Virus record (IMG/VR): IMGVR_UViG_3300008051_000017
Location: 1-23,824 of that record
Reading direction: 5' to 3' (one strand)
DNA from: a virus
DNA: 23,824 nucleotides
In this document: one piece after another, positions 9,426-23,580 of the stretch
Numbering within the stretch: the first letter of the stretch is position 1
Layout: each line of letters opens with the position of its first letter
Notes under the pieces: generated by a model
The model's input: the letters and a program-made list of their open reading frames with translations, nothing else
What the model was told of the DNA's origin: nothing
Database searches by the model: none
Translations under genes and position numbers: made by a program

Positions 9426-9803
9426 TTAAGCTCTTTTAATCTTCCTGCTACGGCTCCTCAACACCTCTCTAAGCTCAATATGCAGCTTGTTGAGGCGATG
9501 ATAGTAGGTACGCTCAGTAAGCCCCAGGCGCTGCGCTTTATGTTCGTTATAGCCTTCCCAGTGGTAATGCTCCCAAGCCAGAACCTGCAGCTCATTACTC
9601 AGGCAGCCAATGCCCTCATACACTTCCCAGGCCAGATCATCGATCACACCATGACCCAACGGGTCGCGGCTTCCCTTAGGGCCGCCGTCAGGCATCACAC
9701 CCTTGAACTCGATCAGCTTGCCCAACGGGCTGCACTGACGCAGGGCACAGCATTTCCATTGATCGGCCCAATGCTTCAGTAGTTCGTCCATTGCTTTAAT
9801 CAT
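9426..9803 (-). CDS. late antiterminator, phage Q-like
   Basis: This 125-residue protein looks like the short Q-type antitermination proteins of lambdoid phages (Pfam Phage_antitermQ). The C-terminal half holds a sigma-region-4-like helix-turn-helix (EHKAQRLGLTERTYYHRLNK, about residues 88-107), followed by a basic tail (RSRSRKIKRA). The N-terminal half has a Cys pair (KCCALRQC). Position supports it: it is the last early gene, and the late genes behind it start after two terminators. ATG 9803 has AGGAG at good spacing. A second in-frame ATG at 9791 lacks a comparable signal. Confidence 0.72.
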   Translation of the reverse strand: MIKAMDELLKHWADQWKCCALRQCSPLGKLIEFKGVMPDGGPKGSRDPLGHGVIDDLAWEVYEGIGCLSNELQVLAWEHYHWEGYNEHKAQRLGLTERTYYHRLNKLHIELREVLRSRSRKIKRA

Positions 9804-9847
9804 TGGTTTGCTCCTGCTTTCGGCCTGGTGGGTAGCCTTAGTTCTAA

Positions 9848-13893: not shown

Positions 13894-14100
13894 TCACCGC
13901 TTCTCCCTTCTGGTCTGGCACGGCACACACGTAGCAACCCCTGGCAAGCGCTCACGCCGAGCAGCGGGGATCTCCTCGCCGCAGTCCTCACACTCAGTTA
14001 CCTCAGTACCGCCTAACGGCTGGACTGCTTGTTGGCGAGCCTTCAGCACCTGCTCTAACCGCCATTCCATATAGTCGTTAGCAATATCGGCCTTATCCAT
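13894..14100 (-). CDS. DksA/TraR-type C4 zinc-finger protein
   Basis: This 68-residue protein has the TraR pattern: an N-terminal helix (MDKADIANDYMEWRLEQVL), then a four-Cys finger CEDCGEEIPAARRER with a second pair CVPCQ. TraR-like proteins enter the RNA polymerase secondary channel and mimic DksA with ppGpp, shifting host promoter use. GGGAGG precedes ATG 14100. The gene overlaps the CII-like gene by 8 nt, so it belongs to the cro-side early operon. Confidence 0.88.
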   Translation of the reverse strand: MDKADIANDYMEWRLEQVLKARQQAVQPLGGTEVTECEDCGEEIPAARRERLPGVATCVPCQTRREKR

Positions 14101-14602: not shown

Positions 14603-14628
14603 GGCATTACTCCCGAAACGTTGCCATG
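14600..14628 (-). promoter_or_regulatory. hairpin sequestering the CII-like start codon
   Basis: On the minus-strand mRNA, CATGGCA pairs with TGCCATG over 7 bp around a 15-nt loop. The last three bases of the stem are the start codon of the CII-like gene, and its Shine-Dalgarno (GGGAG) is in the loop. This could make translation of the regulator weak or conditional. Confidence 0.5.
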
Positions 14629-14692
14629 CAACCCACCCGCCAATCGGTTATATTGGGGATGTGTCGCATTTCATTGCATTGGTTTGCGCACA

Positions 14693-14730
14693 GCAGAGCG
14701 GGCCTGTGGTGGGCATCTAAACCGCTCTGC
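14693..14730 (-). promoter_or_regulatory. 38-nt structured RNA element, promoter-distal copy (nutR/putR-like position)
   Basis: A perfect 9-bp stem (GCAGAGCGG with CCGCTCTGC) encloses a 20-nt loop. On the transcribed minus strand the loop carries CCCACCACAGG. It lies between the cro-like and CII-like genes. Its architecture equals that of 14737-14774 and 16500-16537. Confidence 0.65.
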
Positions 14731-14736
14731 ACCTTC

Positions 14737-14774
14737 GCCGGGGAGTAAACCTGTGGTGGGAAGATCTCCCCGGC
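14737..14774 (-). promoter_or_regulatory. 38-nt structured RNA element, promoter-proximal copy (nutR/putR-like position)
   Basis: A perfect 9-bp stem (GCCGGGGAG with CTCCCCGGC) encloses a 20-nt loop with CCCACCACAGG on the minus strand. It starts 18 nt after the cro-like gene and is separated from its sister hairpin by 6 nt. The stem sequence is unrelated to the sister's, while the loop motif is the same. Confidence 0.65.
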
Positions 14775-14791
14775 ACCTCTAAAGCTGCTGG

Positions 14792-15025
14792 TTAGGCGGC
14801 TTTTTTGTTTAATTCTTCTTCAGTAACACCGTAATGCATTAGCACCTCAGATAAAGAAACCTGACCGGCACTCTCACGTGCTAACGCCCTCATAAATTTG
14901 AGGCTTGCACCCCGAGTAGGACCAATAACATGCGTCTTGAGGTACTTAGAAGATGTACCCAACGCGATTGCATACTTTTCTAGCCCCGCCTCATCAAGCG
15001 ATTTTAAGTAGTCAGTTAACATCAT
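14792..15025 (-). CDS. Cro-like repressor
   Basis: This 77-residue DNA-binding protein is divergent from cI. It has a helix-turn-helix-like segment KYAIALGTSSKYLKTHV (about 17-33) in the Cro/YdaS-like style. Size and position match Cro, which shuts off the repressor promoter to favour lytic growth. Two adjacent ATGs begin the gene (15025 and 15022). The upstream AAGTGAG is a weak Shine-Dalgarno. Confidence 0.8.
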   Translation of the reverse strand: MMLTDYLKSLDEAGLEKYAIALGTSSKYLKTHVIGPTRGASLKFMRALARESAGQVSLSEVLMHYGVTEEELNKKAA

Positions 15026-15064
15026 CTCACTTAGCCCGTGGCTATGGGTTACCCCTTAAGAATT

Positions 15065-15078
15065 ACACCTATAGATGA
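15065..15078. promoter_or_regulatory. degenerate repressor operator (cro side)
   Basis: ACACCT-AT-AGATGA has one good half-site and one degenerate half-site of the CACCT/AGGTG dyad. It lies in the cro leader, between the clearer operators and the cro start. Confidence 0.45.
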
Positions 15079-15086
15079 ATATTGCA

Positions 15087-15101
15087 ACACCTTCTAGGTG
15101 C
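15087..15101. promoter_or_regulatory. repressor operator
   Basis: CACCT-TCT-AGGTG is a perfect 5-bp dyad with a 3-nt spacer in the cro-cI intergenic region. The same half-sites recur at 15104-15116 and upstream of the plus-strand early operon. Confidence 0.75.
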
Positions 15102-15130
15102 TTCACCTGTGAGGTGTATCAGCAGATAAT
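15102..15130 (+). promoter_or_regulatory. proposed cI promoter (pRM-like) giving a leaderless mRNA
   Basis: TTCACC (15102-15107) and GATAAT (15125-15130) are separated by 17 nt. The -10 ends 6 nt before the cI ATG at 15137, so transcription would begin at or next to the A of the start codon. No Shine-Dalgarno exists upstream of this ATG, as in lambda's leaderless cI message. Confidence 0.55.
15104..15116. promoter_or_regulatory. repressor operator overlapping the cI promoter
   Basis: CACCT-GTG-AGGTG is a perfect dyad. It covers part of the -35 element and the start of the spacer of the proposed cI promoter, so its occupant (probably Cro, or CI at high level) would block repressor synthesis. 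Confidence 0.75.
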
Positions 15131-15136
15131 CCAACA

Positions 15137-15814
15137 ATGGACATATTCACAAAGCGATACCAAAACCTGCGCGCCGTCATGGACGCAAGGAAAATGAAAC
15201 TAAAAGACTTGGCCAGTGCGATTGATCGTAGTGAAAGCCAGTCCAGCAGCTTTGCGGGTGCAAATCCTCAAAAAAATATCGGCGAGAGAATGGCCCGCCG
15301 CATTGAAGAAAGCTTATCACTAGCCCCCTACTCGCTTGACCAAGACGACTTCCAAGTATCAGAACAATCAAACGTATACACCATCACTCGCCATACCGAT
15401 GCGGCAGTTATAGCCGACATAACGCACATGCTGCCGGTCGTGGGCATGGCCAGCGCTGGGAGACTTATGGAGAGTGTTGAAGACGCAGAAATTGAGGAGT
15501 ACGTACCAGCACCAGGTCCATGTGGTAAAAACTCATTTGTGCTGCGCCTAGATGGCGTCAGCATGCTGCCCGACTTCAAACCAGGCGACAGGATTGTCAT
15601 TGATCCCGACGCAGAATGGGTAAGCGGCGACTTCGTTTACGCCTGCAGAACCGATGCTGGCTGCTCTGATGTGGGCACCTTTAAAAAGATCATCTTCGAA
15701 GAAGGCGAATATTATTTATGCGCTGCCAACGAAGACTGGCATCCGCGATACACCAAGCTGGAGAAAGGGTGGAAGGTAGTCGGCAAAGCCCGATATCAAG
15801 TTAAGCTCCTATAA
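15137..15814 (+). CDS. cI: prophage repressor, CI/LexA-type with S24 autoprotease
   Basis: This 225-residue repressor has an N-terminal helix-turn-helix (about 17-40, MKLKDLASAIDRSESQSSSF) and a C-terminal S24 protease-like dimerisation domain. The self-cleavage site is Ala107-Gly108 (MASAGRL), the nucleophile Ser142 (DGVSMLP) and the general base Lys183 (GTFKKI), so it should be inactivated by RecA-stimulated autocleavage on DNA damage. It is divergent from cro and flanked by CACCT/AGGTG operators on both sides. It maintains lysogeny by silencing both early promoters. The start has no Shine-Dalgarno, which fits a leaderless transcript. Confidence 0.93.
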   Translation: MDIFTKRYQNLRAVMDARKMKLKDLASAIDRSESQSSSFAGANPQKNIGERMARRIEESLSLAPYSLDQDDFQVSEQSNVYTITRHTDAAVIADITHMLPVVGMASAGRLMESVEDAEIEEYVPAPGPCGKNSFVLRLDGVSMLPDFKPGDRIVIDPDAEWVSGDFVYACRTDAGCSDVGTFKKIIFEEGEYYLCAANEDWHPRYTKLEKGWKVVGKARYQVKLL

Positions 15815-15829
15815 AACAAGGGGAACACC

Positions 15830-16447
15830 ATGGGAGAGTTTGATTACTTAAAGCGCTTCAACAGTGCGCGAGTTCAAAGCAGAAACATGGATGAACTCAT
15901 TGGCTTATCAAGAGGCATGCTAGCGGACGGTAAAATCGTTCAAGAAGAAGCTGAGTTTTTACAACGTTGGCTGCATCAAGCACAAGATATGGGTGACGAT
16001 CCTATCTACCGCATTCTCACATCGCGACTTGAAATGATGTTAGCCGATGACGTACTCGATGCTGATGAATCGCAAGAGCTACTTGAAATGCTTCAAGCTC
16101 TTACAGGTGATAATGGCAAACCCACCAACTATCGCCGACCTTCTCATCTTCCCCTGAATGATCCACTTCCTGATATCGACTTCCAAGATCGCGGTTTCAC
16201 CTTCACAGGCGTCATGGCCTTTGGTCCCAGAAAAGAATGCCAAGCATTGGTAACTGAACGGGGAGGCAAAGCTCTACCTGGTCCATCCAAAAAAGTGCAC
16301 TACTTAGTTATTGGCACTATTGCGAATGAGCATTGGGCACATAGCAGTTATGGCCGAAAAATAGAGCGCGCTTTAGAAATTCGTGAGTCAGGGCACCCAC
16401 TTGCCATCATTAATGAAGATCATTTCATTAGTTTTGCGATGAAATAA
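15830..16447 (+). CDS. TerB-like/BRCT-domain protein next to the repressor
   Basis: This 205-residue protein has two parts. Residues ~20-92 form a helical acidic region like TerB/DnaJ-adjacent domains (LIGLSRGMLADGKIVQEEA, LADDVLDADESQELLEML). Residues ~120-205 are a BRCT domain, recognisable from FTFTGVMAFGPRKECQALV, GGKALPGPSKKVHYLVIG and the closing helix, as in the C-terminus of NAD-dependent DNA ligase. There is no catalytic ligase part. It begins 15 nt after cI with AAGGGGAA upstream and is somewhat AT-richer than the structural genes. Cotranscription with cI implies expression in lysogens: a lysogenic-conversion or defence gene is possible, but no function can be assigned from sequence. 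Confidence 0.82.
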   Translation: MGEFDYLKRFNSARVQSRNMDELIGLSRGMLADGKIVQEEAEFLQRWLHQAQDMGDDPIYRILTSRLEMMLADDVLDADESQELLEMLQALTGDNGKPTNYRRPSHLPLNDPLPDIDFQDRGFTFTGVMAFGPRKECQALVTERGGKALPGPSKKVHYLVIGTIANEHWAHSSYGRKIERALEIRESGHPLAIINEDHFISFAMK

Positions 16448-16451
16448 CCAA

Positions 16452-16472
16452 AGGTGTTACACCTGGCAGGTT
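16452..16472. promoter_or_regulatory. overlapping repressor operators upstream of the plus-strand early operon
   Basis: CACCT-GGC-AGGTT (16460-16472) is a near-perfect operator. It is overlapped by the outward-facing pair AGGTGT-T-ACACCT (16452-16464) sharing one half-site. Its right end touches the -35 TTGACA of the early promoter. Confidence 0.65.
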
Positions 16473-16502
16473 GACAAACACCTAAAGGTGTACAAAACTC
16501 AT
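16471..16502 (+). promoter_or_regulatory. early promoter (pL-like) with operator between -35 and -10
   Basis: TTGACA (16471-16476) is a consensus -35. The operator CACCT-AA-AGGTG (16479-16490, with ACACCT/AGGTGT arms) lies directly behind it, in the spacer. The -10 is poor and its exact position is uncertain (AAAACT at 17-nt spacing, or TACAAA at 14). A repressor bound there would block RNA polymerase, as at lambda pL. Confidence 0.65.
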
Positions 16503-16537
16503 TGTCGTAATCCGCCCACCACGGAGCCACGACAATG
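16500..16537 (+). promoter_or_regulatory. 38-nt structured RNA element at the nutL-like position
   Basis: A perfect 9-bp stem (CATTGTCGT with ACGACAATG) encloses a 20-nt loop with CCCACCACGG. It starts about 24 nt after the -35 box. The 3' arm contains the ATG of the first gene and the loop contains its GGAG, so the hairpin could also control translation. Length and architecture equal those of the two elements at 14693-14774. Confidence 0.65.
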
Positions 16538-16726
16538 CCAACCAATGCCCAACCATGCCGGGTGTACATGCACCCGGCCGCAGGTAACAGCCACATCGCC
16601 ATTCAGGCCATGCAACACGTCACAGGACGCGTTGCTGCCCGCCTGACTGGCACCAAATCCCGCACCATCTATTTGCTCACCCCTGAAGAAGCGGCGCGCT
16701 ATCGCCGCGCAGGCGGTGCTGCATGA
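16535..16726 (+). CDS. unknown 63-residue protein, first gene of the early plus operon
   Basis: This small protein begins MPTNAQPCRVYMHPAAG and ends RYRRAGGAA, and has no recognised family. GGAG lies 8 nt upstream of the ATG, but both are within the 16500-16537 hairpin. The stop overlaps the next start (ATGATGA). First position after pL is where lambdoid phages place N or small regulators. It is not Arg-rich at the N-terminus, so it does not look like an N protein. Confidence 0.65.
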   Translation: MPTNAQPCRVYMHPAAGNSHIAIQAMQHVTGRVAARLTGTKSRTIYLLTPEEAARYRRAGGAA

Positions 16727-18369: not shown

Positions 18370-18392
18370 CCCACCAACGCAAACCAATGCAA
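18370..18392 (+). repeat. duplicated leader segment (also at 19261-19288)
   Basis: The segment CCCACCAACG plus CAAACCAATGCAA occurs here and again at 19261-19288. The second copy has 5 extra bases (GAGAG) that create the ribosome-binding site of the gene at 19283. Here the ATG leads to a stop two codons later. Confidence 0.8.
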
Positions 18393-18404
18393 TAAGGAAT
18401 GACT

Positions 18405-19228: not shown

Positions 19229-19260
19229 ACCCCGCCGCCACCCACCACGGGCGGCGGGGT
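19229..19260 (+). promoter_or_regulatory. very stable intergenic hairpin with CCCACCACG loop
   Basis: An 11-bp perfect GC-rich stem (19229-19239 with 19250-19260) encloses the 10-nt loop ACCCACCACG. No T-run follows, so it is not a standard terminator. It lies between the DUF2303-like gene and the next gene and could stabilise or process the mRNA. Its loop motif is shared with the 38-nt elements, but its geometry differs. Confidence 0.6.
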
Positions 19261-19282
19261 CCCACCAACGGAGAGCAAACCA

Positions 19283-19528
19283 ATGCAAACTGCACAGCCC
19301 ACAAACCAGACGTACCTTCAGTATCCACAATTCCGCTTCATCGAGTTCAACAAGCGCCGTCAAATGCGCGGCGCCGAGTGCGCCCGTATCGAGATCATCT
19401 ACGCAGAGGGCGATATGGATTGCATCTGGATGAGCGCGGGTGACCTGCAAAACAACATTCGCACGTGGGGCCCACACGCAGCACTGACCGAAGCCCTCAA
19501 GGCCTACGGGCAAGGGGGCCGGGGATGA
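19283..19528 (+). CDS. unknown 81-residue phage protein
   Basis: This small soluble protein begins MQTAQPTNQTYLQYPQF and has a central RIEIIYAEGDMDCIWMSAG. It ends in ALKAYGQGGRG, a tail repeated by the micro-gene at 20276. GGAG precedes ATG 19283. No family is recognised. Confidence 0.68.
   Translation: MQTAQPTNQTYLQYPQFRFIEFNKRRQMRGAECARIEIIYAEGDMDCIWMSAGDLQNNIRTWGPHAALTEALKAYGQGGRG
19502..19528 (+). repeat. 27-bp direct repeat at a gene end, copy 1 (copy 2 at 20321-20347)
   Basis: The last 27 bases of the 81-residue gene are identical to 20321-20347. Both copies end in GGGGATGA, where the stop of one gene overlaps the ATG of the next and the G-run serves as ribosome-binding site. Confidence 0.95.
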
Positions 19529-22552: not shown

Positions 22553-23580
22553 AAAAAGCGGCGCAACATCGCGCCGCTGTAATTTCATCGATCGACACCG
22601 GCACGTTTGATTACCAAATCACTTTCCCCCGCAGTAAGAACGCCCGCAAGTTCATGCGCCAAGATCGGCTAGACAATTACCTGCGGCAGTGGCTAAACGC
22701 TAAGCGCCCTAGCTTGAAAGCGTCCACGATCAAAACCTATGACACCATCATCGAGCGGCTACTGATACCTGAGATGGGGCATTTGCTGCTGGCAGAGGTT
22801 ACGCGGCCGCTGGTACGTAACTGGCTAGCGTCACTCTCCTGCGGCAACAAACGCCTCAGCAACATTCTTATGGTACTGCGTTCGGCACTCAGTGATGCCA
22901 TGCATGATGAGCTGCTCGATACCAACCCTTTGCAGGGCTGGCACTACCGGTTAAAAGAAGCACCAGGCCCCAAGAAAGGGCCAGACCCATTCACGCGTGA
23001 AGAACAGGAGGCGATCCTCTCGGCCACACGCCCCGAGGTGCGACCGCTGTTTCAGTTTGCGTTCTGGACTGGCTTGCGCCCTAGCGAATATATCGCCCTG
23101 GAGTGGGGTGACATCGATTGGCACCGCATGGAAATCATCGTAAACAAATCCATCACCACCGCTGCCAAGGGAGAGGCAGAAGATACGAAGACCTCAGCAG
23201 GCAGGCGAACGGTCGCGCTGTTACCGCCTGCGGCCGAGGCGTTAAAGCAGCAAAAGAAATACACGATGCTCCACCCCAGCGGACGCATCTTCCTGTGGCC
23301 ACGTAGCCAGAAGGTGTTTAGCGGTGATAGCGACATACGCGAAAAGCTCTGGCGCCCCGCCGTGATACGTTCCGGCGTTCGGTACCGTACGCTCTATCAA
23401 ACGCGGCACACTTTCGGCTCAATGATGCTGTCAGCAGGAGAACCCTTAGCATGGGTTAGCAAACAAATGGGGCACCGTGATGTAGTATTCACCGCCAGGA
23501 CATACGCGCAGTGGATACCGAACACGTCACCAGAGCTGGGATTGAGAGCAGTCGAGATGTTTGGGGGTAGTCAGCTTTAA
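22423..23580 (+). CDS. int: phage integrase, tyrosine recombinase
   Basis: This 385-residue enzyme has an N-terminal arm-binding domain (about 5-60, YQGTRCRERLKL), a core-binding SAM-like domain (about 80-170) and a catalytic domain. Catalytic residues are Arg219 (TGLRPSE), Lys256 (DTKTSAGRR), Arg328 (QTRHTF), His351 (MGHRD) and nucleophile Tyr361 (ARTYAQW). The first His of the HxxR box is Tyr, usual for this subgroup. AAGGG lies about 9 nt upstream of the ATG. It is the last prophage gene. 26 nt after its stop begins the tRNA-derived attachment region, confirming site-specific integration. Confidence 0.95.
   Translation: MGNKGSSYEGVRIASTSSIEIDFYYQGTRCRERLKLQPSPANLKKAAQHRAAVISSIDTGTFDYQITFPRSKNARKFMRQDRLDNYLRQWLNAKRPSLKASTIKTYDTIIERLLIPEMGHLLLAEVTRPLVRNWLASLSCGNKRLSNILMVLRSALSDAMHDELLDTNPLQGWHYRLKEAPGPKKGPDPFTREEQEAILSATRPEVRPLFQFAFWTGLRPSEYIALEWGDIDWHRMEIIVNKSITTAAKGEAEDTKTSAGRRTVALLPPAAEALKQQKKYTMLHPSGRIFLWPRSQKVFSGDSDIREKLWRPAVIRSGVRYRTLYQTRHTFGSMMLSAGEPLAWVSKQMGHRDVVFTARTYAQWIPNTSPELGLRAVEMFGGSQL

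Follow-up and report, generated by a model that had tools for sequence, protein, structure and literature searches.

A putative antisense small RNA with matched target sites in related Halomonas and Pseudomonas phages

In phage lambda, the short OOP RNA is antisense to cII itself and ends in a terminator, and pRE is a CII-dependent antisense promoter at the start of cII. Another lambda antisense RNA that depends on CII, aQ, lowers the expression of Q. The nut sites of lambda contain boxA, which is bound by NusB-S10, and boxB, a small hairpin with a GNRA-like loop; the gene for the Arg-rich N protein follows nutL. The put RNA of HK022 acts on polymerase without a protein factor. The putL and putR sites lie just downstream of pL and approximately 270 nt downstream of the pR start, respectively; each put RNA is approximately 70 nt long with two stem-loops, and putL and putR are similar in sequence (PMC9378689). 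The c4 RNA of phages P1 and P7 and the sar RNA of P22 are phage-encoded and base-pair with a phage mRNA in the region of its ribosome-binding site, displaying the complementary parts in loops (PMC12197685).

Here we describe a phage locus whose nearest known systems are c4, sar, OOP and the CII-dependent lambda antisense RNAs. Its anatomy, its conservation, the matched sites and the start-codon geometry are all visible in the sequences themselves. As with c4 and sar, there is complementarity to ribosome-binding regions of phage mRNAs that is kept by matched changes. Those systems have one described target (ant), whereas the window has at least four candidate targets; the locus does not belong to the c4 antisense RNAs proper and has no Rfam family match. 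The likeness to lambda pRE/aQ lies in a putative antisense promoter that, with its CII-type site, is located where cII starts, and in Q being among the candidate targets. However, the RNA predicted here is short and terminated, several genes would be its targets in trans, and the conserved site differs from the lambda sequence TTGC-N6-TTGC. With OOP it would share being a short antisense RNA at cII with a terminator, but it overlaps the leader and matches distant genes. The locus is set apart from all of these by the number of its candidate targets and by the concerted drift of putative seed and targets.

The window, i.e., the whole stretch of 23,824 nt that we analysed, comes from an IMG/VR virus record (IMGVR_UViG_3300008051_000017), and among named phages Halomonas phage vB_HmeY_H4907 (H4907) is the nearest. 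The gene order is late genes, a Q-like gene, VapE/primase, a DksA-like gene, CII (CP76 family) and cro, after which the opposite strand carries cI, pL and the early operon. The DksA/TraR-like gene (13894-14100, minus strand) comes after cII in nearly all phages of the group. Low-complexity coding repeats occupy positions 1-220 at this end of the contig, which may be an edge of the assembly.

Hairpins at pL and between cro and cII

The window contains three 38-nt hairpins, each with nine perfect pairs and a 20-nt loop, exactly as an earlier note on this DNA had described them; their sequences were reproduced. E1 (14693-14730) and E2 (14737-14774) lie between cro and cII and E3 (16500-16537, plus strand) at pL, and the nutR- and nutL-like placement given in that note is right. 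Read on the minus strand as arm/loop/arm, E1 is GCAGAGCGG/TTTAGATGCCCACCACAGGC/CCGCTCTGC and E2 is GCCGGGGAG/ATCTTCCCACCACAGGTTTA/CTCCCCGGC, while E3 reads CATTGTCGT/AATCCGCCCACCACGGAGCC/ACGACAATG on the plus strand. The three stems are unrelated, and each loop holds CCCACCAC(A)GG on the strand that had been claimed (minus, minus and plus, respectively). Perfect stems of at least 9 bp with loops of 10-30 nt occur only six times in the whole window, and E1-E3 are three of them. The motif recurs in a fourth hairpin (19229-19260, plus strand; 11 bp, loop ACCCACCACG) upstream of the gene at 19283. The 8-9 nt (G)CCCACCAC in the E3 loop is complementary to the GUGGUGGG loops that E1 and E2 present on the plus strand. 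E3 carries the Shine-Dalgarno sequence GGAG in its loop region, and its 3' arm ends in the start codon.

With the CII alignment as query, bacterial genomes yielded 80 prophage loci, which come from Halomonadaceae and Pseudomonas. Phages and prophages of both groups have the same loop (core CACCAC), on different stems, at equivalent positions, and viral relatives have hairpins at the same places with compensatory changes in the stems. Double-sided changes are found in 26 of the 76 predicted pairs among 45 aligned leaders. CCACCA is the commonest 6-mer in the loops of perfect stems of at least 8 bp (26 related loci; 18 different stems). CACCAC falls in stems of at least 7 bp in 8.7% of its occurrences in the 80 prophage loci, compared with 0.9-3.0% for eleven comparison 6-mers. 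The cro-cII leaders of prophage loci hold up to five CACCAC/T motifs where 0.35 are expected per 340 nt, and the named P. aeruginosa phages LPPA36 and vB_Pae_U5 (U5) have the same leader pattern. The hairpins are a conserved RNA family. The earlier idea of structured RNA elements with a constant loop and changing stems is borne out, compensatory stem changes being seen in related phages.

An Rfam search gave no gathering-level match in eight loci and no relevant match in the window. Loci L012-L015 are without E1/E2-like hairpins, and the regions scanned in the Pseudomonas phages Lodos, SC_9 and KT1, which have related CII or weakly similar small proteins, contain no such hairpins. A whole-genome screen of phages for CACCA hairpins was too noisy for site counts. 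In L075, L067, L090 and approximately ten relatives as well as L083, all Pseudomonas prophages, the pL loop and the loop at approximately -173 are both of a non-CACCAC (TACCAC) type; pairs of these two loops comprise 51 CACCAC/CACCAC, 13 matched variants and 2 mixed, mostly from one clade. A hairpin of the type CCGCC-CACCAC-GG stands opposite the Q-like/lysis gene interval (window 9223, plus strand; L124 27007, plus strand), its loop reading GTGGTG on the late-mRNA strand. Pseudomonas cro-cII leaders (e.g., L056 7793-7880) have two CGGA-tetraloop hairpins between the CACCAC hairpins; on the antisense strand these loops are UCCG, a UNCG loop. A reading of them as RsmA/CsrA-type GGA loops was rejected, as they are CGGA tetraloops (sense) and not clearly ANGGA.

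The pL promoter (TTGACA-17-AAAACT; 16471-16499, plus strand) ends at the base before E3. All 89 loci compared share the layout TTGAC-17-(-10), hairpin, Shine-Dalgarno, start codon, with the -10 of pL ending at or next to the hairpin; in many Pseudomonas members a GC-rich stretch precedes the start in pL promoters. Because the -10 abuts the hairpin, at standard spacing, transcription would start inside or after the 5' arm of E3, and at least the upstream part of this arm is probably not transcribed from pL. The outer stem would then shut the ribosome site only in readthrough RNA from the repressor side.

These observations bear on the earlier note's proposal of antitermination, with the hairpins acting on RNA polymerase in the manner of nut or put sites. 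Sites after pL and between cro and cII, as for putL and putR, and a small gene at the N position speak for it, and the position relative to pL, cro and cII is what the hairpins have in common with HK022 put and lambda nut. Structure, site number and start-codon geometry differ, and we regard such sites as a very improbable explanation. E3 is one hairpin with a stem unrelated to the others, the loop alone being shared in the window, as against two stem-loops per put RNA; the loops are CCCACCA or CACCACA, unlike that of boxB. The probable absence of the E3 5' arm from pL transcripts counts against antitermination, as does an extra copy inside the pL operon (19229). Further sites stand at translation starts within this operon and at the Q-like gene. 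There, a sequence of 10-13 nt that comes after the hairpins and that we call box2 (GCAAACCAATGC in the window) overlaps start codons, with the Shine-Dalgarno between hairpin and start. Finally, the window has no sense-strand intrinsic terminator between E1/E2 and cII.

Where lambda has N, the first pL gene of the window encodes a small basic protein of 63 amino acids, HPA (16535-16726, plus strand; phrog_13491). Its family provides the first pL gene in 89 loci (phrog_13491 match in 30 of 33 members) and is the sole pL gene common to nearly all these phages. The earlier statement that no N-like Arg-rich gene is evident has to be qualified accordingly: a small basic protein does occupy this place. 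In a class-wide search of 274 genomes, HPA turned up in only two, including the centre genome.

Anatomy of the plus strand opposite the leader

Opposite the cro-cII leader, the plus strand has the look of a gene for a small RNA of approximately 147 nt (approximately 14659-14807). Just before the cII start is a conserved site, GTTGCCATGCAAC (14620-14632, plus strand), the proposed binding site of a CII-like activator at an antisense promoter. The -10 of this putative pRE-like promoter, TATATT (14649-14654, plus strand), follows 28 nt after the TTGCCA start, and the RNA would be expected to start near 14659-14661. Nearly all aligned loci have TTGCCA/TGCCATGC and, approximately 28 nt further on, a -10; in Pseudomonas loci the -10 is 31 nt from the start of GTTGCCAGTG. 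Relatives show -10 variants (TATATT, TATGAT, TATCAT, TACATT) at similar spacing, near-constant in most loci, and the promoter pattern had no match in PG1, U5, LPPA36 and L116. We rejected the lambda CII site TTGC-N6-TTGC as the promoter signal: its exact copy (14674-14687) is the seed itself, and it is not kept in L029 and others.

Four stem-loops are predicted. Stem-loop 1 (14660-14692, plus strand), whose stem is kept with changed sequence in relatives, displays in its loop a 12-nt seed, GCATTGGTTTGC (14676-14687, plus strand), the complement of box2 GCAAACCAATGC; exact or near-exact complements of it stand at four gene starts. E1 and E2 would form stem-loops 2 and 3, each with the loop GUGGUGGG on the plus strand. 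Stem-loop 4 is an intrinsic terminator, AAAGCTGCTGGTTAGGCGGCTTT-TTTG (plus strand; 14781-14807, or 14781-14803 in a shorter delimitation), at the 3' end of cro. Neither this terminator nor the recurrence at gene starts of the 12-nt sequence next to E1 figures in the earlier note. By the rule of our script, 83 of 95 loci have an antisense intrinsic terminator; in several Halomonadaceae prophages the terminator is without a clear U-run.

The earlier note had E1 and E2 acting on the minus strand. The acting strand is probably the opposite one, because it is the plus strand that has the promoter-like sequence and the terminator and that folds with the lower energy. The fold of 14660-14807 (plus strand) has -67.5 kcal/mol (z -4.36); for the leader region on the minus strand, taken between somewhat different limits, z is -2.99. 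All 13 Halomonadaceae sequences of one comparison fold more stably as the antisense strand, as do all 6 Halomonadaceae leaders and 62 of the 73 Pseudomonas leaders of another; in the Pseudomonas leader L056 the z-scores of the two strands are nearly equal. In minimum free energy folds, CACCAC is in hairpin loops in 302 of 329 cases on the sense strand, compared with 167 of 329 for its complement on the antisense strand. The G-U pairs of two Pseudomonas leader hairpins, approximately 285 and 47 nt before cII, fit the sense strand (approximately 25:2 and 32:1, respectively), and the latter hairpin overlaps the proposed antisense promoter. Because these two hairpins favour the sense strand, a role for that strand keeps some weight.

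The G-U bias would be expected if a phage RNA-binding protein, perhaps HPA, recognised the CCCACCA hairpins and box2 on sense-strand mRNA and so repressed translation of its own and other genes, the cII leader being a further site. We consider this unlikely, even with a loop core (ACCA) that is constant across genera and with HPA so widely shared. The AlphaFold model of HPA has the element order E-H-H-E-E-H, and several of its weak Foldseek matches are KH domains. None of the Foldseek E-values is better than 0.38, the pLDDT of a second model is a poor 67, and HPA has no Pfam match; the KH-domain reading was rejected on these grounds. In L083, moreover, the loop type at pL tracks the leader and not the protein type. 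Base pairing is also the simpler explanation for the exact matching of variable bases within each phage and for the switch in phage PG1, to which we now turn.

Matched sites at gene starts

One copy of box2 lies in the leader beside E1 (14676-14687, read on the minus strand) and is not at a start codon. The others stand at gene starts. The start of the HPA gene has GCCAACCAATGC, with one change (16537-16548, plus strand). A 12/12 match to GCAAACCAATGC precedes the DUF2303 start at 18399 (18379-18390, plus strand), with CCCACCA just upstream, and another lies over the start codon of gene 19283-19528 (19275-19286, plus strand). The start codon of the Q-like gene (9426-9803) is overlapped by GCAAACCAATGA, which matches at 11/12 positions (9800-9811, minus strand); upstream of this gene, the sequence reads as a short hairpin, GGC-TACCCACCAG-GCC (9822-9837, minus strand). 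The homologue of the Q-like gene in H4907 is annotated as an antitermination protein. A CCCACCA loop is found at at least three of these four box2 targets, i.e., the first pL gene, DUF2303, gene 19283 and the Q-like gene.

We ranked gene starts by their longest identity to the cro-cII leader of the same phage, cII being trivially first where included. In the window, cII is followed by DUF2303 (16 nt), gene 19283 (14 nt) and the Q-like gene (11 nt), with 9 nt for the first pL gene. In H4907, DUF2303 has 14 nt and the first pL gene 13 nt. In LPPA36 only two genes stand out, the first pL gene (15 nt) and one other (11 nt). Duplex energy alone ranks targets poorly in GC-rich genomes. Stutzerimonas phage PG1 (L126) has the same layout at 22674-22868 and in the cro-cII leader, with another shared loop, CCCACTTACCAC, and another box, GGACACAGCA. 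Its ranking is headed by the first pL gene (15 nt; GGACACAGCACAGCA) and the DUF2303 homologue YfdQ (14 nt; ACCCACTTACCACA), followed by the gene after YfdQ (12 nt) and YfdP (11 nt). Judged by these replaced motifs, PG1 is a natural specificity variant.

Leader and gene starts share a phage-specific box in other phages as well: GCACACCAATGC in L011 (four sites), GCAACCACATG in L039, GCACACCAAATG in L046, GCACACCACATG in L037 and GCAAACCAAATG in both L065 and L111. When boxes were permuted across phages, none of 20,000 permutations was as good for the first pL gene, with p = 5e-5 for the gene after DUF2303 and p = 0.0026 for the Q start, on site lists that were partly read off by eye and with related phages that are not independent. 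With a looser score for the first pL gene region in 17 phages, again none of 20,000 permutations was as good, with the same caveats on site lists and relatedness.

Could the matches be a by-product of shared descent and of codon or ribosome-site preference, with no trans-acting factor? Many loci are close relatives and box2 sits at ribosome-binding regions, as such a by-product would have it. Yet the leader copy is away from any start codon, close relatives (L011 and the window) differ by matched variants at several sites at once, the permutation tests favour the true pairing, and hairpin plus box2 recur before unrelated genes. We give this possibility hardly any credence. Base pairing is most likely the link between leader and gene starts, because the variable bases are matched at scattered sites in each phage and because PG1 has replaced both motifs.

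A proposed circuit and its meaning

We think it likely that a trans-acting antisense small RNA is made from the plus strand, with E1 and E2 within it, and acts on several phage mRNAs. A CII-type site and promoter would drive an RNA of approximately 147 nt that is ended by the intrinsic terminator. Stem-loop 1 would display the seed, and stem-loops 2 and 3 the GUGGUGGG loops. The target mRNAs would each offer a CCCACCA(C) loop at the translation start and then box2 around or just before the start codon, so that loop-loop contact and seed pairing together would keep the ribosome from entering. In the window, the first pL gene (through E3), DUF2303, gene 19283 and the Q-like late regulator are the candidate targets. 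We infer that the RNA is expressed, that CII controls it, and that it pairs with and represses these mRNAs in the cell; controlled by CII, it would turn down several lytic genes together when lysogeny is chosen. Across approximately 100 related phages of Halomonas and Pseudomonas, the matching sequences change together, a pattern suggesting that several phage genes are under the simultaneous control of one RNA.

More tentatively, and at somewhat under even odds in our own estimate, a single CII-switched small RNA may set lysis versus lysogeny through joint silencing of DUF2303, Q, the first early gene and a further pL gene. Seed and targets might then be a phage-specific barcode that drifts in concert, letting related phages share one cell without cross-control. 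If the proposal is true, a widespread, unannotated regulatory RNA would be part of the lysis-lysogeny circuit in a large phage group from Pseudomonas and Halomonas, and CII-like (CP76) regulators would gain a second output besides the repressor gene. The group would also provide a natural series of co-evolved RNA-target pairs.
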